Shown piece by piece: positions 11,937 to 31,519 of a DNA stretch of 56,537 nucleotides. A model generated the notes under the pieces. That model was not told where the DNA came from and ran no database searches. It worked only from the letters and a program-made list of their open reading frames with translations. The stretch lies in contig JAENZA010000007.1 in the NCBI GenBank assembly GCA_016841485.1, forward strand, positions 1 through 56,537, in the 5' to 3' direction. The stretch is from Methanobacteriota archaeon (GTDB lineage: Archaea > Halobacteriota > Methanomicrobia > Methanomicrobiales > Methanomicrobiaceae). The stretch's first letter is position 1; every line of letters begins with the position of its first letter. The translations under genes were made by a program, and so were the position numbers.

Positions 11937-12929
11937 TCATGTTTTTCTGAAGAGTTTCTTCTTTGCGAGCAGGACGTAATTTTTTGGCCGGGCGACGTTT
12001 CTCGGGTCGGTCCGGAGCGACTTGTTCAGGTAATGCAGGCAGTCACGATAGTGGCCGATACAGAGGTTGTCATAGGACCCGTGGAGGTAGATGTTGCTGT
12101 AGAATGTGTCCTTTTTTGCCCGGACATCCTCCGGGACGTCCGGGGAGGTGAAGAATTTATCGAGGATTTTTCTGCGCTCTTCCACGTACAGGTGGCGCAT
12201 CGCACTGCTCTTTGCCTCGGGATAGATCCGGGCATTTGCGAGGATATGCGGGATGTAGTCGATGCGAAACTTCAGGACAACCCGGAGCCAGTAGTCGAGG
12301 TCCATCCCGAGGTTGAGCGTGTCGTCAAAGAAGCCTATCTCCTCAAAGACTCTGCGGCGGAAGAAGACCGTCGGCTGGGGGAGGTAGAAGTTGGCACAGA
12401 GATATTCTTCCAGGTCAAGCGGGCCCGGTGCAAGGGTCTCGATGATGTTTGATTCCGGGTCGATATGATTGACATTTCCGAAGACCATATCGGCCTCGGG
12501 GTGGGCAGCGAAATAATCCGCCACCAGCCGGAATACTCCCGGTTCATAGGTATCGTCGGAATTCAGGTACGCGATGATGTCCCCCGTGCAGAGCCGGAGG
12601 CCCTTGTTTATGGCATTGGTCTGACCGTTGTCGGGTTCGGAGCGCCAGATGAGCCGGGAATCATACTTTTTCAGTATATCCACGGTTTTATCGGTTGAAG
12701 CTCCGTCCATAACGATGCACTCTATTGAAGACCAATCCTGACAGAGAATCGAACGAATGGTTTCTTCAATGTATGGACCCTGACAGTAACTCGGGACGAT
12801 GATACTGAATGTGACCTCATTAGACTGCCCGAGATCAGCCTGAATAATCTCTTCCGAATCACACTGCCACGGCCATCCTTTCCGCATTGGCAATGGTTCA
12901 GGAATTCTGCAGTCTTCAAATGTGGTCAT
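11937..12929 (-). CDS. Glycosyltransferase family 2
   Basis: A 330-residue inverting GT-A glycosyltransferase. Typical signatures: FSIIVPSYCQGPYIEETIRSI, the VMDGASTDKTVDIL loop, and the metal-binding AYLNSDDTYEPG. A C-terminal helical tail of about 100 residues follows the GT2 core. No transmembrane segment is seen, so it probably acts on the cytoplasmic face of the membrane. It starts about 50 bases after the DUF115 gene and precedes the GT4 gene by 15 bases. The sugar it transfers is unknown. Confidence 0.9.
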   Translation of the reverse strand: MTTFEDCRIPEPLPMRKGWPWQCDSEEIIQADLGQSNEVTFSIIVPSYCQGPYIEETIRSILCQDWSSIECIVMDGASTDKTVDILKKYDSRLIWRSEPDNGQTNAINKGLRLCTGDIIAYLNSDDTYEPGVFRLVADYFAAHPEADMVFGNVNHIDPESNIIETLAPGPLDLEEYLCANFYLPQPTVFFRRRVFEEIGFFDDTLNLGMDLDYWLRVVLKFRIDYIPHILANARIYPEAKSSAMRHLYVEERRKILDKFFTSPDVPEDVRAKKDTFYSNIYLHGSYDNLCIGHYRDCLHYLNKSLRTDPRNVARPKNYVLLAKKKLFRKT

Positions 12930-12980
12930 CGTGAGTTTATCTCCTGAGGTTCAACGATTGTCTGGGTTGAAATCTTACGT

Positions 12981-13808
12981 TCAGGCATCTGCATTCTTTG
13001 AAAACAAAGAATTGTAATCTATTTTGTCAAACACCTGTAATTTCCCGTCAATGGTGGCATCAATTATTCTGCGTCCGTCTTTTTCAAATGTTGCTTTCGC
13101 AAGTGAGTAGGCCCTTTCTGACGTTTCAAGGTCGGGGAGTTGCCATCGGACACCCTTTCCAAAATATTCCGGATGGAAATGATTCGGGTCCTCGGATTCG
13201 GATACGATCTCCTTGTGAGGCGTTCCTTTGGTTGCAAAACTATGATCTACCCCAATAAGAATTACCTCATCAAAACCGAGATAATATGCAAGCTGCATTG
13301 CCACATACGTCACCGTCGCTCCTTCCCATACTTTTAACCACGGCCATTTCGAGAAACCCAGTGGCTTTAGTGGATGAAACCCACTGTCCCGGACGAAAAG
13401 ATCTCCGTCCTGCAGATCCACCCATTTTCGGGCCTGCCAGCTCATGAACTTCGGCATCGGGAGAGCCGCTATCTCTTTTCCGAATTGCTCCAAAAGAACA
13501 CGGTTGACTGAGACCAGAAAAGAAGGTCTGAATCCTGTTTCCTCCGACAGGAGATAGATTCTGTTTAAGCCAAAAGTGTACTCCTTATCCAGAATAGTCA
13601 GATCCGTTTTTTTAAGACTGGGGCCGTTTCCAATGATAAAACACCTGCATCCACGATATCTGCCCTTTAATTTACGGAAACCAACAACCATTTTCCATCG
13701 CGAGGGACTCAACTGAAAGACAATTCCGTCCAAGCATATATCCAAAAAACCACGGATTGCTCCGATTGGATCGCGTTTCAACCGTTCGAGGTAGCTGTTT
13801 TCATTCAT
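12981..13808 (-). CDS. DUF115 / MptE-Maf-like protein, first copy
   Basis: A 275-residue protein with a Rossmann-like core carrying FIIGNGPSLKKTDL (residues 57-70), the signature shared by DUF115 proteins (Maf flagellin glycosylation factors and MptE-like enzymes) and, more distantly, GT42 sialyltransferases. Further shared motifs are GATVTYVAMQLAYYLGF, VILIGVDHSF and the DPNHFHPEYFGKG segment. Databases often label such proteins 6-hydroxymethylpterin diphosphokinase-like, but the glycan context makes a glycosyltransferase or glycan-modifying role more likely (inference). It lies 2 bases after an SDR gene that follows a CMP-sugar synthetase-like gene. A second copy is at 20396. Confidence 0.8.
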   Translation of the reverse strand: MNENSYLERLKRDPIGAIRGFLDICLDGIVFQLSPSRWKMVVGFRKLKGRYRGCRCFIIGNGPSLKKTDLTILDKEYTFGLNRIYLLSEETGFRPSFLVSVNRVLLEQFGKEIAALPMPKFMSWQARKWVDLQDGDLFVRDSGFHPLKPLGFSKWPWLKVWEGATVTYVAMQLAYYLGFDEVILIGVDHSFATKGTPHKEIVSESEDPNHFHPEYFGKGVRWQLPDLETSERAYSLAKATFEKDGRRIIDATIDGKLQVFDKIDYNSLFSKNADA

Positions 13809-13810
13809 AT

Positions 13811-14557
13811 TTACTCTGTTGACAGTCTGGTCAATGCCCCTCCATCAACGACAAGACCCTGTCCCGTAATAAACGAAGATGTTCTGTTCTCAGCAAGGAA
13901 AAAGACAGCTTCGGCAATCTCTTCCGGCTTTCCGATTCTTCCGAGCAAGTGTTTTTCCGCCAGACTCCTCTTTCGTTCCTCAAGGCTTGCCCCTGAAACA
14001 TGATCTCTTGAAAGACCGTTCTCAAGCATCTGAGTATCAACGGCGCCGGGAAGAACAGCGTTGACCCGAACTCCATCTTCTGCAAATTCAATTGCCATTG
14101 CACGTGTCAGGGCCATCAGCCCCCCTTTACTCGCAGCATAGGCAGCGATATTTCCCGAGGTGGCATGCGCGTGCACCGAACTTATATTGACTACTGCTCC
14201 CCTGGCGTTCGAAAGAAGGGATAGCAGTTCCTTACTCAGGAAGAAGGGTGCCATGAGGTTTGTATTCATTACCCGGGTATAATCCTCATAACTGGTTTCG
14301 GATATCGGCGCACATACCTGATATGCCGCATTATTGACGAGGACATTCAGGGAAGTTAATGTTGATCGGATCTCTTCCCCTATCCTCAAAATCTCTGACG
14401 GTGAGGAAATGTCTGCGGGTATATGTACAAAATTACCAGGAAGTTGTACATCACGGCGGGAAATACCGATGACCTCCCAGTCATCATCGAGAAACCGCCT
14501 CGCAACTGCTTCACCGATACCCCCCGAAACTCCGGTTACCACCGCCGTCCCGCTCAC
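13811..14557 (-). CDS. Short-chain dehydrogenase/reductase
   Basis: Classical NAD(P)-dependent SDR of 248 residues. The cofactor loop TGVSGGIGEAV is at residues 8-18, NNAAYQ is the structural motif, and the catalytic Ser-Tyr-Lys are in VNISSVHA and YAASKGG. The C-terminus (VVDGGALTRL) is as in 3-oxoacyl-reductase-type SDRs. It overlaps the dehydrogenase gene upstream by 4 bases (ATGA) and is followed 2 bases later by a DUF115 gene. The setting recalls ptmA-like oxidoreductases beside CMP-nonulosonate synthetases in flagellin glycosylation loci. Substrate unknown. Confidence 0.88.
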   Translation of the reverse strand: MSGTAVVTGVSGGIGEAVARRFLDDDWEVIGISRRDVQLPGNFVHIPADISSPSEILRIGEEIRSTLTSLNVLVNNAAYQVCAPISETSYEDYTRVMNTNLMAPFFLSKELLSLLSNARGAVVNISSVHAHATSGNIAAYAASKGGLMALTRAMAIEFAEDGVRVNAVLPGAVDTQMLENGLSRDHVSGASLEERKRSLAEKHLLGRIGKPEEIAEAVFFLAENRTSSFITGQGLVVDGGALTRLSTE

Positions 14558-15501
14558 TTCTTCCCCTCCAGACCCAGTATGAGATTTTCCATCGCCCGTT
14601 CATTTGTCCGAAGAATTGCTTCTATTGTATTCGAACTATTGTGCGCCCCAAGAATGACGTCCTGAAATGTCCTCAATGGACTTGTCATGGGAAGCGGTTC
14701 TTCCTCGAAAACATCGAGTGCGGCACCTCCCACCTTCCCCGATTTCAGCGAGGATATCAGGGCAGACTCATCAATCAATGGTCCTCTCGCCGTATTGATA
14801 ATACATACTCCCGTCTTCATCTTCTCAAACTGCTCACGCCCCAGCATATGCCGATTTTCCGGAGTGAGGTTACAGTTGAGGGAGATATAATCAGATTTAG
14901 AAAGAAGTTCATCCAGTTCCACCTGCCGCAACCCATATTCAGCCATGAACCCTTCATCGATAGGATATACATCATACCCTACAAGTTCCATGCCTGCAGT
15001 ATGGGCCCGGGCACCAACCGCCCTTCCAATACTTCCAACGCCGATAATGCCGAGTGTCTTCCCGCGTAGGGACTTCCCTGTTATCTGTGCTTCAGACCAC
15101 AAACCGTCCCGGACCTTCCGGTCGATGAGGTGAAGATGGCGCGACATGAGGATCATATACCCCATCACCTGGTCCGCGACTTCATCACCGAAAACATTCG
15201 GGGTGTTTGTCACCGGTATGCCATATTCCTCTGCTGCTTTGAGATCAATCCCGTCAATCCCAATTCCCCATTTGGAAATGATCTTCAGGTTTTTTGCCTC
15301 ACGAAGAACATTTCGCGTAAACTGGTCGTCACCGGCTATCACACCATCATACTTTCCGATGATTGGAATGAGTTCCTCTTCAGTGAGGTGCTGTTCGACG
15401 AAGGGGAGGTCGAATTGGATCTCGTGGTTCTCAAGGAATTCAGTATACTGTGCAATCGTACGTTGCATATGGGGGCATGAAATAAGAACGGTATATGTCA
15501 T
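14554..15501 (-). CDS. D-2-hydroxyacid dehydrogenase (phosphoglycerate dehydrogenase-like)
   Basis: A 315-residue NAD-dependent D-2-hydroxyacid dehydrogenase. Motifs: cofactor loop GIIGVGSIGRAVG, catalytic Arg in NTARGPLID, and the catalytic His in GAHNSSNT. There is no C-terminal ACT domain, so it is unlikely to be the serine-biosynthesis SerA. It overlaps the cytidylyltransferase gene upstream and the SDR gene downstream by 4 bases each. Such tight coupling suggests the three enzymes make and activate one acidic glycan precursor; this is inference, and the substrate is not known. Confidence 0.88.
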   Translation of the reverse strand: MTYTVLISCPHMQRTIAQYTEFLENHEIQFDLPFVEQHLTEEELIPIIGKYDGVIAGDDQFTRNVLREAKNLKIISKWGIGIDGIDLKAAEEYGIPVTNTPNVFGDEVADQVMGYMILMSRHLHLIDRKVRDGLWSEAQITGKSLRGKTLGIIGVGSIGRAVGARAHTAGMELVGYDVYPIDEGFMAEYGLRQVELDELLSKSDYISLNCNLTPENRHMLGREQFEKMKTGVCIINTARGPLIDESALISSLKSGKVGGAALDVFEEEPLPMTSPLRTFQDVILGAHNSSNTIEAILRTNERAMENLILGLEGKK

Positions 15502-16169
15502 TGTAGACCTTTCCTGATAAGATACAGTTGTTCCGCCAGCTGGAAGTCAATTTCTTCATCGATATCGACGGCTTCGTACCGGTCTGTTTCAAACATGAGG
15601 GGACGTTTTCCAATTCTGTTGTGGTTCTCTTCCAGCACGTCACGAGAAAAGATATACATGCAGGAGTTCTCTTCGTATATGGGGGGGAGATCCTGTGTGC
15701 GGAGGAGGATATTCGGATTATGGTTCACAGGCAGGGTTAATTCATCCCATAAGCGCGTCTGCAGGCGGGTTACTGAAAAAAGGGAATCATACAAGCCTCT
15801 CCTTGCAGTAAACTCATCGACCGCAGCTTCAATGGTAGCCGCCCGGAGCAGAGGATTGGTGGAATGTGTCTGTAAATAATAGTCCGCATCCACCTGACTG
15901 ATGCTGTTGAGAAGCACATCATTCATTGGTATGCTTCCATCCCTGAGGTGCTTTGGCCTTTCAATGAGACGTACTTCCGGGAATTCTTCTTTTGTTTGGG
16001 ATAGTATCATTTCACTGTCCGTGTCTATGACTACCTCATCGACGGATGAAACATCCAGAAGCGTCCGGATAATATAATGATACAACGGTTTTCCCGCAAA
16101 GTTGCGGTAGTTTTTCCCCGGCACTCTTTCACTGGAATGTCGCATCGGGACTATGGCTGCAATTTTCAA
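15498..16169 (-). CDS. Acylneuraminate-type cytidylyltransferase
   Basis: A 223-residue nucleotidyltransferase of the CMP-NeuAc/CMP-Kdo synthetase group, which activates an acidic sugar with CTP. The N-terminal signature AAIVPMRHSSERVPGKNYR is clear, followed by KPLYHYIIRTLL and VVIDTDSE. No sialic-acid synthase (NeuB-like) or epimerase (NeuC-like) is present in the window, so the compound activated is unknown and need not be a sialic acid. It heads the tightly overlapping set cytidylyltransferase-dehydrogenase-SDR-DUF115. The GT2 gene upstream ends 54 bases away. Confidence 0.85.
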   Translation of the reverse strand: MKIAAIVPMRHSSERVPGKNYRNFAGKPLYHYIIRTLLDVSSVDEVVIDTDSEMILSQTKEEFPEVRLIERPKHLRDGSIPMNDVLLNSISQVDADYYLQTHSTNPLLRAATIEAAVDEFTARRGLYDSLFSVTRLQTRLWDELTLPVNHNPNILLRTQDLPPIYEENSCMYIFSRDVLEENHNRIGKRPLMFETDRYEAVDIDEEIDFQLAEQLYLIRKGLQ

Positions 16170-16223
16170 GTATTCACATCCTTATGCGGGTGCATCGTTT
16201 CTAAATAATATGACAGATACCTA

Positions 16224-17183
16224 TCAAATTCTTTCTTCAGAATTTTCAACTGCTGAATAGTCTATAGTACCGTCACGCCTTGTGTTCTTTTCTTTTGAAT
16301 TCTCTGAGGGGTAGTAAAACGTGCGTTTCACCTGTTTTGACACCTCGGTCCGTTGCCGGCACCCGAGATATGCCCCCCAGAACTGCATCGTCCTGAAGAC
16401 GATGATGTTCGAGATGTTCCCAGAGAGCGCTTGCTCTCGCCCTGCGGCGACCATATCTGCAATGATATTTTTCGGTGCCAGTCGAAGAAAATCAAGAAAT
16501 GTCACCCGTTCCTCGGGCACGATCTTTTTCATAGCGATCGCTTCACGACGATACCGGTTGAGAACCCGGGACGCGGGTTCGTCATGGACATGAAGGATCT
16601 CGGCCTCAGCAGAATAGACGATCTTGTATCCCTTCTCCATTGCCCGTCTTGCCCAGTCAAGATCTTCGAGCCCGGTCAGTTCCTCATTGTAGGGCATTTT
16701 TTCCCACATGCTGCGCCGCACGGCACAATTTGCATTATTGCAGAAGGGGGTCTCCTGGTGATAATCAGACTGATCAGGGAACCATGCCCGGAATATCTGG
16801 TGTTCGGAGTACTGGGTCGTATGCCATCCCCGCTGTTTTCCGTACACGACAGCGACATCCGGGTCTTCAAACGGCGCAGTCATCTGCTCGAGCCAGTCCT
16901 TGTACACCGGCCAGCAGTGGGCAGAGATCATGACCAGAAATTCGCCCTGTGCCTCTCTTGCCCCATAATTCAGCGCTCTTCCGAATGAGAACTCCTCCGG
17001 TGCGATATAAACGACTTTCACCGGGTACCGCGAGGCTATGGAAAGGGTTGCATCAGTCGAACCGGAATCGACAAGGATGATTTCAACATCCTTCTCTGTC
17101 TGGTGCATGATCCCTTCCAGGCACTTCCCGATGTGGGTATCCTCATTGTAGCAGCGGATGATGATGGAGCATTTTGGATTCAT
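16224..17183 (-). CDS. Glycosyltransferase family 2 (rhamnosyltransferase-like)
   Basis: GT-A glycosyltransferase of 319 residues opening CSIIIRCYNEDTHIGKCLEGI with the LVDSGSTDATLSIA loop. The usual DxD is replaced by ISAHCWP, a pattern seen in rhamnosyltransferase-like GT2 enzymes. The later segment GLEDLDWARRAMEKGYKIVYS supplies the acidic catalytic region. A C-terminal amphipathic region from about residue 240 may associate with the membrane. Its start is 8 bases from the stop of the next GT2 gene. Donor sugar unknown; GDP-6-deoxyhexose is possible given gmd and the GDP-fucose synthase-like gene nearby. Confidence 0.87.
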   Translation of the reverse strand: MNPKCSIIIRCYNEDTHIGKCLEGIMHQTEKDVEIILVDSGSTDATLSIASRYPVKVVYIAPEEFSFGRALNYGAREAQGEFLVMISAHCWPVYKDWLEQMTAPFEDPDVAVVYGKQRGWHTTQYSEHQIFRAWFPDQSDYHQETPFCNNANCAVRRSMWEKMPYNEELTGLEDLDWARRAMEKGYKIVYSAEAEILHVHDEPASRVLNRYRREAIAMKKIVPEERVTFLDFLRLAPKNIIADMVAAGREQALSGNISNIIVFRTMQFWGAYLGCRQRTEVSKQVKRTFYYPSENSKEKNTRRDGTIDYSAVENSEERI

Positions 17184-17191
17184 TCAGGCCT

Positions 17192-18106
17192 CTATTCAGG
17201 ATTTCTTAATCGTTCGAGAAAACCCCGATAGTAACAGATATTCTTACTGAAAGTAAAATGACGTTTTCCATCCTTACGTGTGCATTTTCGGATCATGTGA
17301 TTGAGATGCAATTTTGAAATCGCCCCAACTTTCCTTCCTAAAAATCGGAAACCGGAATTATTCTTTTGAGCCAGAATTGCATCGGACTGGCCACTTCCAT
17401 ACGCTCTACGGAAAAAATACTCTTTTTCCATCCTCTCCGGGGGGACCAAATGGTGGACAACGGCATCAGGACAGTAATACACCAGGTATCCCTTATCCAT
17501 TACAATTTTCTGCAGTTCTACTTCTTCTGATCCAATGAGGTTGTTCCCAAACCTTCCCAGGCGTTCATCAAACATACCGAACTGCTCAAACACCTCTTTC
17601 CTGAAGGCGATATTTGTCCCGATCAGCCGTTCGGGCCATTTGAGACTTCTTGGCTTATCCCCCCAATCAATCACGCTCAGCATTCTGTAGAGAGATTCGC
17701 CCAACCATTCAGGAGGCGACTGGGACCATAGGGGAACCACTTTGCCGCCTGCGACGAGCACATTATCAGATGTCGAAAAAGACCGGGATATACTATCGAG
17801 CCATAGGGGATCGGCGGTTGCATCATCGTCAATAAACACAATAATATCTGACTTTGATTCTCTAATTCCAGTGTTTCTCGCATTTGACACTCCTTTTTTT
17901 GATTCAGGAATGTAGCGAATGTTTATCGACTGATTTTGTATCCATTTTTTTATTAAAAAGGGGATTTCTAAAGTTTCATTATAGTCAACAATTAAAATTT
18001 CAAAGAAAATATTAGCAATTTCCTGTTCGGATAGACTCTTTATTGTATTATCGATGAAAGCAGGGCACTTATAGGAACAAATTACAACAGAAATATCGAA
18101 TCTCAT
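17192..18106 (-). CDS. Glycosyltransferase family 2, AT-rich gene
   Basis: GT-A glycosyltransferase of 304 residues. It opens ISVVICSYKCPAFIDNTIKSL, has the KKGVSNARNTGI nucleotide-binding segment and the metal site IVFIDDDATADPLW, and a later GSEEVELQKIVMDKGY acidic motif. Codons are noticeably richer in A and T than in the flanking housekeeping genes, a sign of recent acquisition. Upstream lie about 124 AT-rich bases without a gene. Donor and acceptor unknown. Confidence 0.87.
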   Translation of the reverse strand: MRFDISVVICSYKCPAFIDNTIKSLSEQEIANIFFEILIVDYNETLEIPFLIKKWIQNQSINIRYIPESKKGVSNARNTGIRESKSDIIVFIDDDATADPLWLDSISRSFSTSDNVLVAGGKVVPLWSQSPPEWLGESLYRMLSVIDWGDKPRSLKWPERLIGTNIAFRKEVFEQFGMFDERLGRFGNNLIGSEEVELQKIVMDKGYLVYYCPDAVVHHLVPPERMEKEYFFRRAYGSGQSDAILAQKNNSGFRFLGRKVGAISKLHLNHMIRKCTRKDGKRHFTFSKNICYYRGFLERLRNPE

Positions 18107-18230
18107 ATCAAATGATTTTAATCATAATGAAATATTATGTCTTGCATTATTCTTCATTGAACCACTAAACGTACAAAATCTATGCATACGATAAGTCCAA
18201 TTAATATCATCGTTCTGTGATTAGCTGAGA

Positions 18231-19382
18231 CTAGCTATTAACAAATCGGCACCATTCCAGATACTCCTTGGTTAATTTTATCCCTCTTTCAAAATCAAAT
18301 CTTGGCGCAAAATTCAATGCATTCTTTGCCTTATCAATTTTTACGACAGCCTGCGAAGAATACAATTTCATCTTATCAGGATCAGGATAATATTGCATAT
18401 CACTTTTTGGTGGGGATTGTTGAGATGAATTTGACTGTAATGCAGATTTGAGATTTCCTTTTGAGAAAGAATTCGCAAAAGAAAATAGCTGCATCATGAG
18501 GGGAATCCTTGATATTTTATTCTGGACATAGGGATCAAAAACAACGGCTTTTATTGCCTCTATATTTGAAACGGAATTATTTCCGGTCATCCCATCAATA
18601 CTTCCCGGCGGGCATAATCGTAACGAATCACGTCCGAGAAAACGCGAATATTCGCCAAAAAATTCGGCCCAAGTAACAGGATTCCCATCAGAAAGGACAA
18701 AACTCTCCCCTGAACAATTTTCAACCGTCACGCCATTTATCATTGCCTCAATGACATCATCGATATATATGCAATTGCAAATTCCTTTCCCATTATTTGG
18801 AAGATATACTTTCCCGGTCATCAACTGATGAACAGGCGTATGAGTCCATGGTCGGGAATAAGGGCCATATACGATTGCAGGTTGTAGAATACATACCGGC
18901 AATCCCTCTTTCTGTGAATAAGTTCTGAATGTGTTTTCTGCATGCAATTTTGATGTCGCGTAAATATTTGAAGAATCAGGATTTCTAGGGGACGATTCTG
19001 TAATTATGCCCGCTTCTGGACGACCATAGACATCAATTGTACTCATATGGACAATTTTTTGGGCATTTGAGAGCGCAACCTCAGCAAGATTTTCTGCTCC
19101 CTTCATTGCGAGTTTCTTCCTTTTTGAAGGATCGGCAGCAAAGTCATATGCGCAGTGAAAAATGTAATCGCAATCAGATGCCGCAATCGATACATCTGTC
19201 TTATTGACTATGTCCCCGGAGAATATTTCAACATTAAATCGTGCTATACGAGAAGCATGGGATAGATTGCGTACAAGGGCATGAACAGTACAGTCATGCT
19301 CAAGCACCAATTTTTCAATGAGCCTTGAACCGATGAATCCCGTTGCCCCAGTTATCATGACTGAAGAATTATCAATATCCAT
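18231..19382 (-). CDS. NAD-dependent epimerase/dehydratase (extended SDR)
   Basis: A 383-residue extended SDR with cofactor loop MITGATGFIGSRLIEKL near the N-terminus and the catalytic YATSKLHAE (Tyr-x3-Lys). Members epimerise, dehydrate or reduce nucleotide sugars. A roughly 50-residue Ser-rich insertion near residues 290-330 is unusual for the family. The ATG abuts the stop of the Gfo/Idh gene upstream, so FkbM-DUF115-Gfo/Idh-epimerase form one transcript. AT-rich composition. The sugar acted on is not known. Confidence 0.85.
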   Translation of the reverse strand: MDIDNSSVMITGATGFIGSRLIEKLVLEHDCTVHALVRNLSHASRIARFNVEIFSGDIVNKTDVSIAASDCDYIFHCAYDFAADPSKRKKLAMKGAENLAEVALSNAQKIVHMSTIDVYGRPEAGIITESSPRNPDSSNIYATSKLHAENTFRTYSQKEGLPVCILQPAIVYGPYSRPWTHTPVHQLMTGKVYLPNNGKGICNCIYIDDVIEAMINGVTVENCSGESFVLSDGNPVTWAEFFGEYSRFLGRDSLRLCPPGSIDGMTGNNSVSNIEAIKAVVFDPYVQNKISRIPLMMQLFSFANSFSKGNLKSALQSNSSQQSPPKSDMQYYPDPDKMKLYSSQAVVKIDKAKNALNFAPRFDFERGIKLTKEYLEWCRFVNS

Positions 19383-20387
19383 TCATACAACCTCCATCCA
19401 CGGAAGATCCAATTTCCCCTTTCTCAGATAGCATTGTTCGATGAAACTCACAGACTTCATGGCCTCGTATCCTGAGATCAAGGACGGCCTATTGCTGATA
19501 GTAGATGAAATCCAGTCCTCTGCCTGAAGCACAAAAAGGTAATTAAATGGAATATCTATGGGTTGAGTGATTTGCTCATTAAAGACAGACCCCTGTATCC
19601 CGCTTATTCCCGAGTCGTGGGATAACCTGATCTCATTTTTTCTGAGGTTGACAATGACCTGTGCATCTTCAAAAATAAATTCAGCACAATTACTAAGGTC
19701 TCGTGTCCGGCTCAACTCAACAAAGCCACTCACTCCTGAATCCAATTCAATTTCAATTCTGCAGTCTGCTTCGACACCACCAAATGCATCATCATAATAA
19801 TGGAAGGATTTCGGATATCCTAACCACCATATCAATGAATCGATGGTATGGGCTCCGGTATCAAAAAGCACCCCACCGCCTGCCGTTTCCTTCTTAAAGA
19901 AAAAATCAGAAGTTACTGGCCAGTTGTATACATTTCCCTCCAGAAAACGAAATTCGAGCAAATCCCCATATGTCTTCTTCTGGAGAATTTTTTTCATTAA
20001 CTGATGCGCAGGAAGATATCTTCGCATCAGACCAACACTGATTCCCACCTCATTTTTTTCAGAGGCTGCGATCATAGTCTGGCATTCGGATGAAGAGAGT
20101 GCCATCGGCTTTTCGATCAGCACATATTTTTTCTGCTTCAGAAAGTCAATTGCCGCTGTACAGTGAAGGAAATGGGGTAGTGCGAGTACAACTGCATCAA
20201 TATCATCATAAATTTCAGAATAGGTATCAGTTACTAGCGGTACATTGTACCTAACACCCAATTCTCTCGCCCGATTCAGATTTTTATCAACCAATGCTGT
20301 GATTTCAACATCGCTGATACTATTGAATGCAGGAAGATGTCCTTTTTCGGCAACCGCCCCACATCCTACTATTCCAACTCTAACCAT
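19383..20387 (-). CDS. Gfo/Idh/MocA-family oxidoreductase
   Basis: NAD(P)-dependent sugar oxidoreductase of 334 residues. The Rossmann motif VGIVGCGAVAEKGHL opens the protein and the family's EKPMALSS (catalytic-region Lys-Pro) follows at about residue 100. A C-terminal alpha/beta domain with GVLFDTGAHTID is typical. Adjacent to the epimerase and DUF115 genes, it probably makes a keto- or deoxy-sugar intermediate for the surface glycan. AT-rich. Substrate unknown. Confidence 0.87.
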   Translation of the reverse strand: MVRVGIVGCGAVAEKGHLPAFNSISDVEITALVDKNLNRARELGVRYNVPLVTDTYSEIYDDIDAVVLALPHFLHCTAAIDFLKQKKYVLIEKPMALSSSECQTMIAASEKNEVGISVGLMRRYLPAHQLMKKILQKKTYGDLLEFRFLEGNVYNWPVTSDFFFKKETAGGGVLFDTGAHTIDSLIWWLGYPKSFHYYDDAFGGVEADCRIEIELDSGVSGFVELSRTRDLSNCAEFIFEDAQVIVNLRKNEIRLSHDSGISGIQGSVFNEQITQPIDIPFNYLFVLQAEDWISSTISNRPSLISGYEAMKSVSFIEQCYLRKGKLDLPWMEVV

Positions 20388-20395
20388 TGTCCCCT

Positions 20396-21172
20396 TTAAT
20401 CAAATAATGAATAATAATCTACTCTGGGAAACAATTCCAATTTTCCCCCGACACTCGCATTGTAGACTGAAATTCCTCTTGATTTTAAGAATTTTCCAGC
20501 TTCAACATATGCTGTTTCCATGCGATCAACATTGGGATCATGCCACCTAAAACCGGGACCAAAGTATTTGGGATCAAAATGATTCGCATCATTCGTCGCA
20601 GATGTGATCACATTTCCTGATTTCTGATCACCGTCACTTGGTGGGAGGTAATTATGATCCATTCCTATGAGGAATATTTCCTTACATCCCAGATAAAAAG
20701 CCAGCTGGAGATTCAGGTAGGTCACTGTTCCACCCCAATACACCTTTTTCGCAAAATTCGATGCAAATTTGGGGAATCCGCGATAATTCCTGATGAAGTT
20801 GACGTATACCAGGTCATCATCGCTTTCAATAAACTTGGCCAAATCCCAAGGGATGATTTTCGTTGATCCAGTTAGCTGGTTTATCTGCTCTTTCCTGTCT
20901 TCAGCTACAAGTCTGTCCTCAACGGTATAAAAGGTCGGCCTGAAAATTGTCGAATCATACAGTAAGAAAATACCGTTAGATGCTATCGTCACTTCGTCTG
21001 CAATTAGTGTAAGATCGCATTGTGCAAGACTGGGGCCGTTTCCAAGAATGAATGCTCTCTTATCCTTATGAATCCCTTTTAGCGACTGAAGCCTATCGCG
21101 TTGCACCAATGGAATATCCATTGCACCATTCTTGTCCCGACGGGGAATCCATTTAATCATTTCTTCGAGCAT
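20396..21172 (-). CDS. DUF115 / MptE-Maf-like protein, second copy
   Basis: A 258-residue paralogue of the protein at 12981. Shared motifs: FILGNGPSLAQCDL (residues 41-54), GGTVTYLNLQLAFYLGC, IFLIGMDHNY and DANHFDPKYFGPGFRW. It is as far from the first copy as two old paralogues with different acceptors would be. The start overlaps the FkbM gene by 20 bases. The likely role is glycan or protein-linked sugar transfer; the pterin-kinase name given to relatives is probably misleading here (inference). Confidence 0.8.
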   Translation of the reverse strand: MLEEMIKWIPRRDKNGAMDIPLVQRDRLQSLKGIHKDKRAFILGNGPSLAQCDLTLIADEVTIASNGIFLLYDSTIFRPTFYTVEDRLVAEDRKEQINQLTGSTKIIPWDLAKFIESDDDLVYVNFIRNYRGFPKFASNFAKKVYWGGTVTYLNLQLAFYLGCKEIFLIGMDHNYLPPSDGDQKSGNVITSATNDANHFDPKYFGPGFRWHDPNVDRMETAYVEAGKFLKSRGISVYNASVGGKLELFPRVDYYSLFD

Positions 21173-21956
21173 ATATCATGCCAATTGCTTGCTTTCCATC
21201 CCATTCCAGCATTGTCTCAAATTCATGTGATTCTAATAAATGAATTATCTTCTCATGATTAAGACTGGAACTGTTGTCGTGAAATTCCAATGCAATCTTT
21301 CTGGTATTTTTAAAATAGGCATCAGGTAATGAAGATAAAATCGAACCTTCTGAACCTTCACAATCCATTTTTAGATAGTCAATATGCCTCAATTCATTCT
21401 TTTCCATGAATTGAGGCAGCGTGATGCTGGGAACATGAATGTACTCAGGAGTCTCCATTCCAAAGACATCGTTGGAATACAAGGAATTTCTGGTTGAACT
21501 TTTTGAGATAAAAAAACTCAGATAACCATCGACATCACTAACACAAGAATTGAATAATGTTACATTTCCTAATTTCATCTTCTGCAATGAACGGGTCAAA
21601 TTTGCATACGCTTCTTTCCCTGGTTCAAAGCAATATACATGTGAAGCACCTTTGGTAGCTGCCAGAAATGAAAATGCACCGATATTTGCTCCAATATCTA
21701 CTACAAGATCGCCTTCATCAATATCCACAAAATCGTTTGTATAGACTCCTTTTTTTAATATTGAAACGACATTAAAAACAGTTTTTAATTCATTGTTTGG
21801 AAAGTATAAAACAACATTATCTTTAATTAATGTGACTGGTTTGCTCCTTAGAATAAACCCCATAAATATTTCTAAACTGTTATCAAAGAACAAGGACGCT
21901 TTTAAAAGATTTATGTAATAGATGAAAAATCCCCGAATATCCGAAATAATATACAT
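21153..21956 (-). CDS. FkbM-family methyltransferase
   Basis: SAM-dependent methyltransferase of 267 residues, FkbM type (PF05050). The SAM motif VVDIGANIGAFSFLAATKG is at about residues 80-98, followed by VYCFEPGKEAYANL and the family-typical IDYLKMDCEGSEGSIL. FkbM proteins in glycan loci O-methylate sugars. The N-terminal 40 residues are hydrophobic-aromatic and may touch the membrane. Upstream is an AT-rich gap of 171 bases with TTATAAAATAAA near 21967-21981 as a possible TATA box. First gene of its transcript. Confidence 0.85.
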   Translation of the reverse strand: MYIISDIRGFFIYYINLLKASLFFDNSLEIFMGFILRSKPVTLIKDNVVLYFPNNELKTVFNVVSILKKGVYTNDFVDIDEGDLVVDIGANIGAFSFLAATKGASHVYCFEPGKEAYANLTRSLQKMKLGNVTLFNSCVSDVDGYLSFFISKSSTRNSLYSNDVFGMETPEYIHVPSITLPQFMEKNELRHIDYLKMDCEGSEGSILSSLPDAYFKNTRKIALEFHDNSSSLNHEKIIHLLESHEFETMLEWDGKQAIGMIYARRND

Positions 21957-22069
21957 AATACACCTTTATTTTATAATTTAAGAAATTTCGAATTCAAGAG
22001 AATCCCTGTTTTTACAACAACTTCCAATATTTGTACAACCATTCCCAAATGTGCCATGCGTTGATAATT

Positions 22070-22088
22070 TGATTGAATGAATCAATCA
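22070..22088. other. Inverted repeat in an AT-rich gap
   Basis: TGATTGA and TCAATCA pair over a 5-base loop, about 40 bases beyond the stop of the GDP-fucose synthase-like gene on the minus strand. It may help end that transcript. Small and AT-rich, so chance is possible. Confidence 0.3.
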
Positions 22089-22127
22089 TTCATGGACGAT
22101 AGCCTATATTATAATTATCAACCATTT

Positions 22128-23090
<963 letters not shown>

Positions 23091-24134
23091 TCAGTCTCCC
23101 TTCCACCATTTGTCGCCCAACTTCCGACGGATAATCTCGTCACCCTCACCCGGAGATTCAATTCCTGCTGCCCTCAGGTCCGCATCCACCATGATCCGAA
23201 CAAGATCATGGAAGGAGATCTTCGGTTTCCACCCAAGGGCCTTCTCGGCCTTTGCTGCATCCCCGATAAGAACTTCCACCTCCGTCGGACGGAAGTACTT
23301 CGGGTCTATCCGTACATGGTCCTCCACATCCTTTCCCACATAGACAAAGGCCTCATCAAGGAATTCCTGAACCGAATGCGTTTCACCGGTGGCAACGACA
23401 AAATCATCAGGCGTATCATGCTGGAGAATCTTCCACATCGCCTCCACGTACTCAGGCGCAAACCCCCAGTCACGGCGGGCTTCAAGGTTACCCATATAGA
23501 GATACTTCTGCTTCCCGCCAAGAATCGAGGCAATCCCCCTTGTGACCTTCCTTGTCACAAAGGTTTCACCACGACGAGGCGATTCGTGGTTGAAGAGAAT
23601 CCCGTTTGATGCGAACATCCCATACCCTTCCCGGTAATTTTTCACCATCCAGTAGGCATACAGTTTTGCGCAGGAATACGGACTTCGTGGAACAAAGGGA
23701 GTATCTTCATTCTGTGGAGGTGCTGCTCCCCCAAACATTTCACTGGAGGATGCCTGGTAGAGTTTCGCCTCGGAATGGCTCCGCCGCATTGCCTCAAGAA
23801 TCCGGGTCGTCCCCAGCCCCGTCACATTTGAGGTGTATTCCGGCGCATCGAAACTGACGCGGACATGACTCTGGGCGCCGAGATGATAGATCTCTTCCGG
23901 TTTTATGTTATAAATGATATTGGAGAGCTGTTCCCCGTCGGAGAGATCACCATAATGAAGAAAAAGCCGAACGTCCTCACCATGGGGATCCTGGTAGATA
24001 TGATCAATTCTGTCGGTATTGAATGTTGAGGATCTCCGGATTATTCCATGCACCTCATATCCTTTATGCAGCAGCAATTCTGCAAGATACGACCCATCCT
24101 GTCCGGTAATTCCTGTGATCAGGGCTTTCTTCAT
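23091..24134 (-). CDS. gmd: GDP-mannose 4,6-dehydratase
   Basis: Converts GDP-mannose to GDP-4-keto-6-deoxymannose. A 347-residue extended SDR with [17 protein letters not shown] at the N-terminus, [19 protein letters not shown] (the GDP-mannose dehydratase hallmark), [12 protein letters not shown] and the Tyr-x3-Lys pair in [11 protein letters not shown]. Length and motifs match Gmd. It lies between the GDP-mannose pyrophosphorylase gene (78 bases upstream) and the epimerase/reductase gene (6 bases downstream), so the three encode a GDP-mannose to GDP-6-deoxyhexose route. Confidence 0.95.
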
Positions 24135-24211
24135 CCTCTCACATTCTCCTGAATTAAATTAGAGGTAATCCTAAATAATCGTTGGTTGGAAAAGAATTAG
24201 AAAAATATCTT

Positions 24212-25570
24212 TTATATCCGGGAATAGTCATCATCATACCGGACAATATCATCCTCACCGATATACTCACCAATCTGTACCTCTATCATCTCGAGAGGGA
24301 CTTTGCCCGGATTTGCCAGACGGTGGTGTACTCCTGAAGGGACAAAGGTGCTCTCACCCTGACGGACATAGAAGGTCTTATCCCCTATCGTCACTTCAGC
24401 CGTCCCTTTGACAACCACCCAATGTTCACTCCGATGATGGTGCATCTGGAGGGACAGTCTGTTCAGAGGCGGGACGGAGATACGCTTTATTTTGTACCCG
24501 TCATCCTTTTCGAGTTCCGTATATGACCCCCACGGGCGGTAGACCGTGGTATGAAGACGAGCCCGCTCGTCCCCCTCCTTTTTCAGGTCCTGGACGACCT
24601 TTCCGACTTCCTGGGAACGGCTGAGGGGACAGACAAGCAGTGCATCGCGCGTGTCGATGACCGCCATTTCATTGAGCCCAATCGCCATGACCAGCCGGTC
24701 GCTTATTACCAGATTTTCGGATGAATCGATGCAGATGCATTCCCCATCAACTGCATTCCCATTTGCATCATGGAGCATCTCCCGGTAGATTGCTTGAAAA
24801 CTCCCAAGATCATTCCATGATGATGTGAACGGAACCACCCCGGCACAGGCGGTCTTTTCCATCAACCCGTAATCGATGGAGACAGCCGGAGAGGCAGCAA
24901 AAGCCTCCTGTACATCAGGATTCTCAAACGCGGCGACGACCTCCGGAGCATGGTGTTCACATTCACTGAAGAAGAGATCCGAATCAAGCATGAACATCCC
25001 GGAATTCCAGAGATATCCATCTCTGATATACTTCTCTGCCGTCTCTAAATCCGGCTTCTCAACGAATGCATCGACAAGGAACCCGGCAAATGCATGCTTC
25101 CCCGTCCGGATGTATCCGTACCCTGTTTCCGGGCGGTCAGGGGTGACGCCAAAGACCATCAGGTGCTTTGATGCTGCCATCTCTGCAGCAGAATGCACCG
25201 ATTGATGATAGGCATCATCGACATCAACCAGATGATCCGACGGAAGAACAAGAACAGATGCGCTCCCGGCTTCCTTCACAATCTCCTGTATTCCAAAATA
25301 TATTGCCGGAAGTGTGCTCCGGGGCTGAGGCTCGACCAGAACCCTGCATCCATCACAGATCCCCCCTGCCTGATCGGATGCAAGGAACCTGAGATTTTCA
25401 TTGGTGATGATGAAGATCTCCTCAGGCCTTGAATGAAGAAGAGCCCGTTCAATCGTCATCTGAAATAGTGACTTTCCATTAAAGAGAGGAAGAAATTGTT
25501 TTGGATAGTATTCGCGGGATAAGGGAAAGAGGCGTGTTCCACTCCCCCCGGCAAGTATTAAGGTATGCAT
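24212..25570 (-). CDS. Mannose-1-phosphate guanylyltransferase / mannose-6-phosphate isomerase
   Basis: Two-domain enzyme of 452 residues. The N-terminal nucleotidyltransferase has LILAGGSGTRLFPLSREYYPKQFLP and makes GDP-mannose from mannose-1-phosphate and GTP. The C-terminal cupin from about residue 340 has the metal site MHHHRSEHW and KGTAEVTIGD, characteristic of the type II phosphomannose isomerase half. It heads the gmd operon. Divergent from the flippase gene over 107 bases that must hold both promoters. Equivalent bacterial names are ManC, AlgA or XanB. Confidence 0.93.
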   Translation of the reverse strand: MHTLILAGGSGTRLFPLSREYYPKQFLPLFNGKSLFQMTIERALLHSRPEEIFIITNENLRFLASDQAGGICDGCRVLVEPQPRSTLPAIYFGIQEIVKEAGSASVLVLPSDHLVDVDDAYHQSVHSAAEMAASKHLMVFGVTPDRPETGYGYIRTGKHAFAGFLVDAFVEKPDLETAEKYIRDGYLWNSGMFMLDSDLFFSECEHHAPEVVAAFENPDVQEAFAASPAVSIDYGLMEKTACAGVVPFTSSWNDLGSFQAIYREMLHDANGNAVDGECICIDSSENLVISDRLVMAIGLNEMAVIDTRDALLVCPLSRSQEVGKVVQDLKKEGDERARLHTTVYRPWGSYTELEKDDGYKIKRISVPPLNRLSLQMHHHRSEHWVVVKGTAEVTIGDKTFYVRQGESTFVPSGVHHRLANPGKVPLEMIEVQIGEYIGEDDIVRYDDDYSRI

Positions 25571-25644
25571 GCTCTGGACTCCGGATCTAACTAATATCTG
25601 CTGATACTCGGTTAAAAACTTCCCTCTAGAATCCTATCTGCCGC

Positions 25645-25652
25645 AATATTTA
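25645..25652 (+). promoter_or_regulatory. TATA-like element for the flippase gene
   Basis: AATATTTA lies 26-33 bases upstream of the GTG at 25678, the expected geometry for a leaderless archaeal transcript and some support for that start codon. Confidence 0.4.
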
Positions 25653-25677
25653 CCCACTGACAGGAAAATACTATGAT

Positions 25678-27150
25678 GTGAAACCACCCCGAGAGGCAAT
25701 CACCCGCATTCTCTCCATCGACCCCATACGCCGGCAGAGCCTGATATCCTTCAATTCACAGATCATAATCACATTCCTCGGGTTCGTGTCAACAATTTAT
25801 ATTGCCCGGGTGATCGGGTCCGACGGGTATGGAGCGTACGCTCTCTTCCTCTCCTACTTCTATATCATGAATCTCTTCACAGATACCGGAATCACCGGGG
25901 CTGTCGTGAAACGTGTGTCTGAAGGAAAGGAAGAAAATGCGTACTTTTCTGCATATATTTCGATCAAAATAATACTTCTTGCATTAGCGGTCTTCGCACT
26001 CTATCTTTTCAGAGATCTATTTGTCGACCTCAATGACAACGGACTCTTCCCCTGGCTAATTGCAGCCATTGTTATTGCATCGTTTTGGGGAATTCTGGCA
26101 GCAGGTATGCAGGCAACCGGAAGCTGGGGTCTGCGTGAAATTTCAAACCTTCTGAACAACATCCTGCGAATCATAGTTCAGGTCATTGCGGTATTCCTGG
26201 GATTCTCTGTTGCCGGTATGGTGGGTGGATTCGTATTCGGATATCTGGCAGGCATCCTTATGCTCATCCGATATATTCCCCTCAGATTTTCATCATTTTC
26301 CAGGGACCACGTAAAAAGCCTCATCATTTTTGCTCTTTTTGCCGCAGGTGGAACTGTGGGTGCGGTTCTTCTAAATAATACGGACAGAATAATGATCGGG
26401 TATTTCTATAGCAATACAGAGGTCGGCGTCTACGCTATAGCCTATCAGCTTACGATCTTTGCAAGTTTTGCTGCAGCGGCTATCGGATCTACATTATATC
26501 CCCGCTTTTCACGATGGGCAACCGATAAGGAATTTTCATCCATAGAAAAAAGCCTTAAAAAAGCAATTCCATTTAGTCTGACATTAGCTATCCCGATGTT
26601 AATCGGAGGTTTTGTTCTTCAAACCCACATTCTTCCAATACTCTATGGTGAAGCATTTGCTGCCGGATCGACGGTTCTTCTCTTCCTGCTGGCCTTTCAA
26701 GCACTGAATTGTATCAATGTAGTCCTTGGAACTGCATTAACATCTTTAGATCGTGTGAAAATTAGTGCCATATCAACTTTCCTTGGAGCTGCCCTCAATA
26801 TTGCAATCAACATGCTTCTCATTCCAGTTATCGGCATCCTCGGCGCCGGTATCGCAACCGTCATGGCAGGCGCCGTGATCCTCGGCACCCGCTATCTCTT
26901 CCTGCGCCAGCACATCCACGTCAACGTCAACGTCCCGATGCTCACCCACATCGTCGCCGCCTCGCTTGTCATGGGCATCGTCATCGCGGCCTTGAACTAC
27001 CTCATCGATATCAACACGATCATCACCCTCTTCGCAGTCGTCGCCGTCGGGGCCGCCATCTACCTGGGAAGCCTCTACAAGCTGAACGCGGAATTTGCAG
27101 AGGAGGTTCTCGGGATCTTCGGCATCCTCAGTGGGAAGAAGAGCGGCTGA
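25678..27150 (+). CDS. Wzx-type polysaccharide flippase
   Basis: Integral membrane protein of 490 residues with about 14 hydrophobic segments, matching the polysaccharide-export flippase family (PF01943/PF13440). Segments such as IYIARVIGSDGYGAYALFLSYF, FTDTGITGAVVKRVSEGKEE and NNTDRIMIGYFYSNTEVGVYAIAYQ are typical. It should flip lipid-linked glycan across the cytoplasmic membrane. The GTG start is supported by a TATA-like box. It is the only plus-strand gene in the island and separates the two minus-strand blocks. A collapsed second copy lies at 37222. The last 300 bases are more GC-rich than the middle of the gene. Confidence 0.9.
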   Translation: MKPPREAITRILSIDPIRRQSLISFNSQIIITFLGFVSTIYIARVIGSDGYGAYALFLSYFYIMNLFTDTGITGAVVKRVSEGKEENAYFSAYISIKIILLALAVFALYLFRDLFVDLNDNGLFPWLIAAIVIASFWGILAAGMQATGSWGLREISNLLNNILRIIVQVIAVFLGFSVAGMVGGFVFGYLAGILMLIRYIPLRFSSFSRDHVKSLIIFALFAAGGTVGAVLLNNTDRIMIGYFYSNTEVGVYAIAYQLTIFASFAAAAIGSTLYPRFSRWATDKEFSSIEKSLKKAIPFSLTLAIPMLIGGFVLQTHILPILYGEAFAAGSTVLLFLLAFQALNCINVVLGTALTSLDRVKISAISTFLGAALNIAINMLLIPVIGILGAGIATVMAGAVILGTRYLFLRQHIHVNVNVPMLTHIVAASLVMGIVIAALNYLIDINTIITLFAVVAVGAAIYLGSLYKLNAEFAEEVLGIFGILSGKKSG

Positions 27151-27455
27151 ACGAATCGAATAATCAGACCGTGAGTATCTGGAATTGGGCCCTACCCCCT
27201 CCATAGTGAGGAGGCCCCCCCTTATTTCAGTCCAAAATGAGCCCAATTGGAGCGTATTTTCCGGGGATAATGAGGTCTTGGAAAATCTAGCCATTTTGAT
27301 AATTATTTGCGAAATAAAGAATATTCCAAGGACTATATTCGTCATTTAACGGCGTGGATTTTCCGAAGGTGCAGATAGTCAGGGAAGGGTGAAATCTGCC
27401 CGTAGTCTGCGCCTGTGTCGATCGTTTATATGGGCCTATTTCCCCGAAATAAGCC
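27151..27455. other. Gene-free gap between convergent genes, with several inverted repeats
   Basis: No coding region is supported here. It separates the ends of the flippase gene and the nucleotide-sugar dehydrogenase gene. It holds an 8-bp inverted repeat (27183-27190 with 27241-27248, about 50 bases between arms), a small TTATTT/AAATAA hairpin near 27303-27317 and the strong hairpin at 27432-27456. This looks like a two-sided transcription-end region. Confidence 0.5.
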
Positions 27456-27456
27456 C
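27432..27456 (-). terminator. Strong hairpin at the end of the uronic-acid operon
   Basis: GGGCCTATTTC and GAAATAAGCCC form an 11-position stem with one mismatch and a 3-base loop. It sits against the stop codon of the dehydrogenase gene ending at 27456, the last gene of the minus-strand block. Position and symmetry suggest a terminator or 3'-end stabiliser. Confidence 0.55.
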
Positions 27457-29842: not shown

Positions 29843-29843
29843 C

Positions 29844-30932: not shown

Positions 30933-31519
30933 CTGTTGGCCCCCGCAGGAAGGTCGCGGAACCTGGCCGGAGCACCAACCGCAAGCGTGTGCGGGGGAAC
31001 ATCGTGAGTAACGACCGCCCCCGCTGCAACGAGGGAACCCTCGCCTATCACCACACCCGGCAGAATGGTGACATTCGCTCCGATGGACGCTCCTTTCCTG
31101 ATAACCGGCCCCTTGAGATCCTTTCCCCCATGCGGAGGATACGGGTCATTGGTGAGGACGGCATTCGGACCGATGAATACATCATCCTCGATGGTTACTC
31201 CCGTTGGGATATACACCAGACTCTGCATATTCACGCCATTTCCTATTCTCGTGTTCCCTTCGATGATGGAATTCGTGCCGATGGAGACACCATTTCCAAT
31301 GACCGTATGTTCCCTGATGACGACATTGTGGCCGGTGGAAAAGTCATCCCCCGCCGTGACATCACAGTACACAATGGTCCCGGATCGAACGACTGCATTC
31401 CTCCCAATCACCGCCCCCGGAAAGTCAGTTTCCCCCAGACGTTGCCGTGATGGATACCCGAGAACAACGTTTTCGGAAATTACAGCATTTTCACCTATCG
31501 AATTTTTTCCACAGTGCAT
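30929..31519 (-). CDS. Left-handed beta-helix N-acetyltransferase, WbpD/WlbB-like
   Basis: Hexapeptide-repeat acyltransferase of 196 residues: repeated I-G-N/V-x4 units run through most of the protein, with IGPNAVLTNDPYPPHGGKDL containing the conserved Asn-Asp-Pro of WbpD-type enzymes. It would acetylate the new 3-amino group. First gene of the uronic-acid block; about 170 bases separate it from the end of glmS. The 2-epimerase (WbpI-like) that would convert gluco to manno form is not seen, so the glucuronate form is the expected product. Confidence 0.87.
   Translation of the reverse strand: MHCGKNSIGENAVISENVVLGYPSRQRLGETDFPGAVIGRNAVVRSGTIVYCDVTAGDDFSTGHNVVIREHTVIGNGVSIGTNSIIEGNTRIGNGVNMQSLVYIPTGVTIEDDVFIGPNAVLTNDPYPPHGGKDLKGPVIRKGASIGANVTILPGVVIGEGSLVAAGAVVTHDVPPHTLAVGAPARFRDLPAGANR

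Follow-up and report, generated by a model that had tools for sequence, protein, structure and literature searches.

The window analysed here, a stretch of 56,537 nt from a contig of an archaeon of the Methanomicrobiaceae, carries four tightly packed genes on its minus strand. These encode a cytidylyltransferase with a TTG start (CMPS, 15498..16169; PF02348, CTP_transf_3, 110 bits), a D-2-hydroxyacid dehydrogenase (HADH, 14554..15501; PF02826/PF00389, 200 bits for 2-Hacid_dh_C), a short-chain dehydrogenase (SDR, 13811..14557; PF13561, adh_short_C2, 170 bits) and a DUF115 protein (12981..13808; PF01973, MptE-like/DUF115, 50.6-51.6 bits). CMPS and HADH overlap by 4 bp (ATGA), as do HADH and SDR (GTGA), whereas SDR and DUF115 are separated by a 2-bp gap. 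The first-pass annotation had described this string with the same spacing and gene families; we recovered all four reading frames at these positions, and each protein exceeded its Pfam gathering cut-off. Two family-2 glycosyltransferase genes (PF00535, minus strand), not mentioned in the first-pass annotation, flank the module, GT2b (16224..17183) upstream of CMPS and GT2a (11937..12929) downstream of DUF115. The setting resembles a surface-glycan cluster, which also encodes a second, diverged DUF115 protein on the minus strand (20396..21172; PF01973, 49 bits), possibly another transferase.

The module enzymes retain their catalytic residues, which do not vary among module relatives. CMPS is predicted to be a CMP-ulosonate synthetase of a distinct cytidylyltransferase clade. 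Its best PDB match is mouse CMP-Neu5Ac synthetase (1qwj, E 2.6e-17), and it aligns with CMP-sialate synthetases over the full length, down to a VDID motif close to the C-terminus. Against the PseF model it scored 91.8 bits, well below the cut-off of 205.7, and in our tree the module clade (81 rows) is separate from NeuB-type synthetases with a support of 100/100 and a branch of 3.11. Cytidylyltransferases of the PF02348 family use 2-ulosonic acids as substrates. HADH is predicted to be a PGDH-like enzyme that converts an aldonate to a 2-keto acid. It reached 239 bits with the PGDH equivalog model (cut-off 454), and the catalytic residues R239, E268 and H287 as well as the adjacent N288 are invariant in 31 of 31 sequences. 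Oxidation of an aldonate by such an enzyme would yield a 2-ulosonic acid and thus match the substrate class of the CMPS family. For SDR, a classical short-chain dehydrogenase with invariant catalytic residues (N100, S127, Y140 and K144), we predict an aldose 1-dehydrogenase activity yielding a lactone. Its closest solved relative is 2dtd, a glucose-1-dehydrogenase-related protein, and its best NCBIfam model is "aldose dehydrogenase" (178 bits, cut-off 341). Both dehydrogenases belong to broad families and stay below every equivalog cut-off.

Distribution and origin of the cassette

Relatives of CMPS with 55-69% identity were collected from 83 loci in Bacteroidota, Chloroflexota, Cyanobacteria, Proteobacteria, Myxococcota and three other methanogens. 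HADH lies nearby in 58 of these loci, SDR in 44 and DUF115 in 41. The four-gene string recurs far beyond chance, and it is conserved with translational coupling across several bacterial phyla and methanogens, which bears out the earlier suggestion that the genes form a real module. HADH, likewise suspected to be an added element of the pathway, proved to be an integral partner: all 11 genomes tested that contain an orphan CMPS encode a module-type HADH at an unlinked position (240-343 bits, versus at most 186 bits for the next paralogue), and in 4 of them HADH, SDR and DUF115 constitute a separate operon. A plasmid search with HADH as query returned a CTP_transf_3-type gene near the match in 6 of 6 records.

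The archaeal copies form a single clade nested among bacterial ones (support 98/95). The cassette is chiefly bacterial, and its bacterial relatives together with the nested archaeal clade rule out an archaea-specific module. The overall idea of the first-pass annotation, a CMP-activated acid made without the usual synthase and transferred by DUF115, is partly supported: the missing synthase and the likely transferase hold up, whereas its main claim to novelty, a type of building block new to archaea, does not.

A related form occurs in Leisingera and Sinorhizobium fredii, where a distant cytidylyltransferase is combined with a Gfo/Idh protein, a SIS isomerase and an inositol-monophosphatase-type phosphatase; it might start from a sugar phosphate and arrive at an acid of the same type. 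A search of the K-antigen literature of S. fredii gave no identity for the acid of strain SMH12. A DNA search retrieved no E. coli relative of the module, so that the 4-deoxy-2-hexulosonic acid reported for the K3 capsule could not be linked to it. No phage relative was found either, and enterobacterial plasmid matches (30-33% identity) turned out to be NeuB-linked and to represent a different system.

Condensing synthases and the source of the acid

The absence of a NeuB-type synthase, noted before for the window, extends to the rest of its genome (assembly 91% complete), where no PF03102 protein was detected, and to an archaeal relative, G056, with a 98% complete genome. NeuB scoring above 100 bits is also absent from 13 of 29 other module-bearing genomes. 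Cultured carriers of the module without NeuB include Mucilaginibacter gilvus and Parapedobacter luteus. Weak PF03102 matches in bacteria were left out of the NeuB counts, since they coincide with strong PF00793 matches (two genomes compared). PF00793 itself (KdsA/DAHP-type synthase) was found neither in the window's own genome nor in three archaeal relatives, and PF03328 (HpcH aldolase) neither in the own genome, 91% complete, nor in G056. PEP mutase (PF13714) is likewise absent from the own assembly at this completeness; G056 has one PEP mutase/isocitrate-lyase-type protein. PF00701 is present in the own genome in a single copy, presumably DapA.

For the own genome, as far as its 91% complete assembly shows, we thus reject an ordinary nonulosonate pathway with NeuB encoded elsewhere, and also a Kdo pathway, given the missing PF00793 and a CMPS score of 44 bits with the best KdsB-type model (cut-off 255). 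An aldolase-made 2-keto-3-deoxy acid is disfavoured by the lack of HpcH and the lone DapA-type gene, and a phosphonate pathway by the lack of PEP mutase. The coherence of the module and its independence from NeuB are well supported. That the cassette accomplishes synthesis and transfer of a CMP-activated 2-ulosonic acid without any PEP- or pyruvate-condensing synthase is a proposal to which we assign an even chance.

The alternative that survives best, although we consider it unlikely, is modelled on modified nonulosonic acids: a synthase or aldolase that is encoded elsewhere and escaped recognition or detection would supply the ulosonic acid, and HADH and SDR would only tailor side-chain carbons by oxidation or reduction before CMP activation. 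NeuA/PseF-type enzymes are indeed the closest to CMPS, and in Acuticoccus an HpcH aldolase adjoins a module-like CMPS and an HADH of another lineage (34% identical), so that aldolase-fed variants of the module may exist. Many module-bearing Chloroflexota also have NeuB, in some within 6 kb, but this NeuB is accompanied by its own second cytidylyltransferase and SDR. Tailoring is further at odds with the 13 NeuB-free genomes and with the scarcity of synthases and aldolases in the own genome. Moreover, a D-2-hydroxyacid dehydrogenase works at the carbon adjoining the carboxylate, which is the anomeric carbon of an ulosonate, and side-chain tailoring is therefore a poor explanation for HADH.

Transferase candidates

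DUF115 (275 aa, one domain) is modelled as a single-domain Maf/GT42-type fold (AF2, pLDDT 92.7). With this model, Foldseek retrieved Maf (5mu5, E 3.4e-6) as top match and MptE as second. The family profile matches the sialyltransferases CstII/CstI with an E-value of 4e-5 over GNGPSL/N/GxD, a distant relation, and the residues N61, G62, P63, S64, N82 and D188 (CMP-binding motif) are invariant in 39 rows. In agreement with the role proposed in the first-pass annotation, DUF115 is thus predicted to be a likely CMP-sugar transferase.

Homologues of GT2b (45-63% identical) lie beside CMPS in 49 of the 83 loci, a linkage as tight as that of DUF115, and GT2b could be an accessory or alternative transferase. 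GT2a is more loosely associated with the module; GT2 proteins frequently come after DUF115 in Chloroflexota. GT2b might even be the true transferase, with DUF115 acting as an MptE-like pterin kinase or having some other, unrelated role. We regard this as rather improbable, although DUF115 occurs in fewer loci than GT2b, its family bears the Pfam label MptE-like and MptE ranks second in the Foldseek search. Against it stand the GT42 profile match, the existence of HADH-SDR-DUF115 operons without GT2b and a separate MptE candidate on contig C84, whose PF01973 score (76.9 versus 51.6 bits) rules out the module protein as the MptE orthologue of this genome. A transfer by GT2b would touch the last step only and be compatible with the main model.

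A possible oxidative route

Two types of candidate lactonases accompany the module. A PF04199 hydrolase with an invariant metal-binding motif adjoins it in 12 loci; structure prediction confirmed its kynurenine-formamidase fold, which gives no substrate, and the family includes esterases and a dienelactone hydrolase (PMC5341072). An SMP-30/gluconolactonase is found beside the module in five further loci, all devoid of PF04199, and is the sole full-length copy in 3 of these 5 genomes, an association based on five loci and only roughly calibrated. No lactonase was detected in the window operon, and many Chloroflexota loci lack one. The association with lactonases suggests that the acid, for whose formation the first-pass annotation proposed no route, arises by oxidation.

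According to our proposal, in which the individual reactions, the sense in which HADH works, the sugar and the acceptor are all inferred, SDR would oxidise a free aldose at C1 to a lactone, which would open to the aldonic acid either spontaneously or, where present, through a PF04199- or SMP-30-type lactonase. HADH would then oxidise this D-2-hydroxy acid to its 2-keto form, much as SerA acts on 3-phosphoglycerate, and CMPS would activate the cyclised 2-keto acid with CTP to CMP-ulosonate, the release of pyrophosphate pulling the unfavourable HADH oxidation. Finally, the GT42/Maf-like DUF115 protein would move the sugar onto a surface glycan or protein. The product is probably not 3-deoxy. That many bacterial phyla and some methanogens use such a second, oxidative route (aldose to aldonolactone, aldonate, 2-keto-aldonate and CMP conjugate, with the C3 hydroxyl kept) is tentative, in our estimate somewhat short of an even chance.

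HADH could instead make a small 2-keto acid, e.g. hydroxypyruvate from D-glycerate, which an unlinked aldolase would couple with an aldehyde to form a non-deoxy ulosonate. The resemblance of HADH to PGDH/glycerate-dehydrogenase and the gene order HpcH-CMPS-HADH in Acuticoccus fit this scheme, but the Acuticoccus HADH is of a different lineage, the conserved string contains no aldolase, HpcH is absent from the own genome and G056, and SDR and the lactonases would be left unexplained; we judge it quite improbable. Least probable of all is a different CMP-conjugate pathway with a non-ulosonic product such as a phosphonate or polyol: phosphonates are also activated with CMP and G056 has its PEP mutase/isocitrate-lyase-type protein, but the missing PEP mutase of the own genome, the full-length match of CMPS to CMP-sialate synthetases with its VDID motif, the GT42/Maf-like DUF115 and the glycan cluster around the genes all argue to the contrary.

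The well-studied CMP-activated surface acids (sialic, pseudaminic and legionaminic acid, Kdo) arise by PEP or pyruvate condensation and carry no oxygen at C3. If our oxidative route is correct, oxidation replaces condensation in a widespread cassette, and the resulting acid differs from all of these by its C3 hydroxyl. Such a class of surface acids would be missed by NeuB-based genome screens, and it would account for "acylneuraminate cytidylyltransferase" annotations in genomes without NeuB. The cassette constitutes a defined enzyme set for assay. A literature search for this gene combination yielded no description, many subscription papers being outside its reach.

With the NeuB/NeuA-type pathways for sialic, pseudaminic and legionaminic acid, the last of which is known in archaea from Halorubrum (PMC6137143), the cassette has in common CMP activation by a PF02348 enzyme, a CMP-using transferase and the connection to surface glycans. 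It differs in lacking a condensing synthase and in the additional D-2-hydroxyacid dehydrogenase and SDR, and its CMPS clade is split off by a long, fully supported branch. HADH shares fold and catalytic R/E/H with the SerA family, to which we liken it and whose members can carry out the oxidation of a D-2-hydroxy acid if a later step pulls it; unlike SerA, it stays below the PGDH cut-off, has an invariant Asn after the catalytic His and sits in glycan clusters next to a cytidylyltransferase. Maf flagellin glycosyltransferases (PF01973; 5mu5), which accept CMP-Neu5Ac and CMP-Kdo as donors (PMC11339370), and GT42 enzymes (CstII) have the fold and the GNGPSL...N...GxD motif in common with DUF115. 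However, Maf is a three-domain protein of ~600 aa acting on flagellin, whereas DUF115 is devoid of the Maf N- and C-terminal domains, is not known to have a flagellin target and, in contrast to Maf/GT42 systems, shows no fixed link to NeuB. Oxidative aldose catabolism, with xylose dehydrogenase, lactonase and xylonate steps (PMC12076931), likewise leads by a dehydrogenase and a lactonase, or spontaneous opening, to an aldonate; catabolism dehydrates this aldonate, whereas the cassette would oxidise it at C2 and activate it for a glycan.

Gene string and genomic setting

The tightly overlapping four-gene string proposed in the first-pass annotation was recovered in full on the minus strand, and Pfam backs every assignment. 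In order of transcription, it comprises a cytidylyltransferase (CMPS, 16169-15498), a D-2-hydroxyacid dehydrogenase (HADH, 15501-14554), a short-chain dehydrogenase (SDR, 14557-13811) and a Maf/GT42-type protein (DUF115, 13808-12981). Stop and start codons overlap as ATGA at CMPS/HADH and as GTGA at HADH/SDR, and 2 bp separate SDR from DUF115. The surface-glycan cluster that houses the module also contains GDP-fucose genes, GMP/PMI, a nucleotide-sugar dehydrogenase, a flippase-like protein and several glycosyltransferases. Most of this cluster (12001-28000) has a G+C content of 0.38-0.50 versus 0.57-0.60 on both flanks, as expected for acquired DNA. The window also encodes topoisomerase VI and Sep-tRNA:Cys-tRNA synthase, and is thus that of a methanogenic archaeon by gene content.

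A second, diverged DUF115 protein (20396-21172) is accompanied at 18231-21956 by an FkbM-type methyltransferase, a Gfo/Idh oxidoreductase and an NAD-dependent epimerase; Mucilaginibacter (L046) has a DUF115-Gfo/Idh pair of this type. The consecutive genes at 27456-31519 (nucleotide-sugar dehydrogenase, Gfo/Idh oxidoreductase, DegT-type aminotransferase, acyltransferase) resemble a diacetamido-uronic acid route.

Distribution, ancestry and coherence of the module

A genome-wide search with CMPS yielded 80 loci (55-69% identity), mostly from Bacteroidota, Chloroflexota, Cyanobacteria, Proteobacteria and Myxococcota, to which three from related methanogens were added. HADH lies within the same few kilobases in 58 of these 83 loci (two more copies are interrupted by contig ends); an upstream family-2 glycosyltransferase (GT2) gene is nearby in 49, SDR in 44 and DUF115 in 41. 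The string envisaged as a module does recur in other genomes, with HADH, SDR and DUF115 jointly present in 31/83 loci. Module CMPSs form an 81-row clade (support 100/100), separated from NeuB-type synthetases by a branch length of 3.11. In a joined CMPS, HADH and SDR tree, the three archaeal rows are a single clade (98/95) nested among bacteria, which is consistent with entry of the module into this archaeal order from bacteria. In one archaeal relative (L111:8437-9110), a frameshift splits CMPS into two overlapping pieces, which may be genuine or an error of this 59% complete assembly.

Some Bacteroidota and one cyanobacterium have CMPS without module neighbours. All 11 such genomes searched encode a module-type HADH elsewhere (240-343 bits, alignment starting at residue 1-5), well ahead of the remaining hydroxyacid dehydrogenases of these genomes, which reach 186 bits at most. 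The unlinked HADH opens an HADH-SDR-DUF115 operon in four Saprospiraceae-type genomes, and the cyanobacterium has an HADH-SDR pair. The reverse search, with HADH against plasmids, returned six records, each with a cytidylyltransferase-family gene nearby. The case for HADH and CMPS serving one pathway is strongest here, in the unlinked HADH and in this reverse search; we regard coherence of the module as highly probable.

On plasmids of Leisingera (L136:5826-10927) and Sinorhizobium fredii SMH12 (L138:5899-10793), module-type HADH occurs with a distant CTP_transf_3 cytidylyltransferase, Gfo/Idh, a SIS-domain isomerase and an inositol-monophosphatase-type phosphatase. With this set, a sugar phosphate could be turned into a free aldose and then oxidised at C1, perhaps as a related way to make another acidic sugar. 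In S. fredii it stands after capsule-type genes.

Proposed origin of the activated sugar

The first-pass annotation had seen no NeuB, and the search of the whole genome (91% complete) bears this out: neither NeuB nor a PF00793 synthase, HpcH aldolase or PEP mutase was found, and the only PF00701 protein is presumably DapA. NeuB, PF00793 and HpcH are likewise absent from a 98% complete archaeal relative (G056). Among 29 further genomes with the module, 13 lack any NeuB match above 100 bits; a complete Mesorhizobium chromosome is one of them. Weak bacterial PF03102 matches overlap strong PF00793 matches in genomes where both were compared. In Chloroflexota with NeuB near the module, NeuB brings its own second cytidylyltransferase and SDR. 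From these separate partners and the NeuB-free genomes, NeuB encoded elsewhere is therefore dismissed as a general explanation.

In Anaerolineaceae loci (L074, L081, L101, L105 and others), the module adjoins a second set of SDR, cytidylyltransferase (410-420 aa) and NeuB, with a Capsule_synth-like protein (PF05159) next; these are two CMP-sugar systems side by side. On Enterobacter and E. coli capsule-type plasmids (L129, L130), a cytidylyltransferase, an inositol monophosphatase-family protein and a NeuB-family protein of ~514 aa are consecutive, an unusual NeuB neighbourhood. An Acuticoccus plasmid (L131:8201-11362) combines an HpcH-type aldolase with a 49% identical CMPS and an HADH of another kind. 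The three genes abut or overlap, and a HAD hydrolase follows immediately downstream; aldolase-fed relatives of the module may therefore exist.

PF02348 synthetases of this kind activate 2-ulosonic acids, as established for NeuA, KdsB and PseF, and a CMP-activated ulosonate is the probable product of the module. For the specific oxidative route the chances appear about even. HADH, its R/E/H triad intact, would convert an aldonate into a 2-keto acid, the group that CMPS-type enzymes activate. Its nearest named family is SerA, where such oxidation proceeds when pulled by a later step; here, CTP consumption could exert the pull. The nearest solved structure to SDR is a glucose-1-dehydrogenase-related enzyme, which is only suggestive of an aldose 1-dehydrogenase since SDR similarity is a poor substrate guide. 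Aldose dehydrogenases produce lactones. Twelve loci, those of all three archaeal relatives among them, have a PF04199 hydrolase with an invariant H-x-G-T-H-x-D...H metal motif between the GT2 gene and CMPS; metal-dependent esterases belong to this family, as does a trans-dienelactone hydrolase (PMC5341072). Five other loci, all without PF04199, have an SMP-30/gluconolactonase (PF08450) nearby (Thalassovita and Sulfitobacter plasmids, L059, L070, L095), against a rough chance expectation of ~0.5 among 80; in the latter three genomes (3.1-3.9 Mb) it is the sole full-length copy. This association is supportive, not proof. Neither hydrolase is present in the window operon; elsewhere the genome encodes one PF04199 protein that shares 37% identity with the module type, and lactone opening can be spontaneous (PMC12076931).

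Candidate transferase and comparison with known systems

The suggestion that DUF115 is the transferase has gained from structure prediction. Its AlphaFold2 model (pLDDT 92.7) matches the Maf glycosyltransferase 5mu5 best in Foldseek (E 3.4e-6), followed by the pterin kinase MptE and, with weaker E-values, human sialyltransferases. Profile comparison of the family also links it to GT42 sialyltransferases (E 4e-5), across the GNGPSL, N and GxD positions, and Maf enzymes use CMP-Neu5Ac and CMP-Kdo as donors (PMC11339370). A separate MptE candidate in the genome scores above the module DUF115. Alternatively, the GT2 gene upstream of CMPS (16224-17183, minus strand), which is linked as well as DUF115, would be the transferase; on profile and model, DUF115 is the leading candidate.

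No description of such a cassette was found in the literature searched, most subscription papers lying outside its reach. The module resembles nonulosonate systems in their activation-and-transfer half, yet is without their defining synthase, and its DUF115 departs from Maf in the architecture test; we file it as a NeuB-independent CMP-ulosonate cassette.
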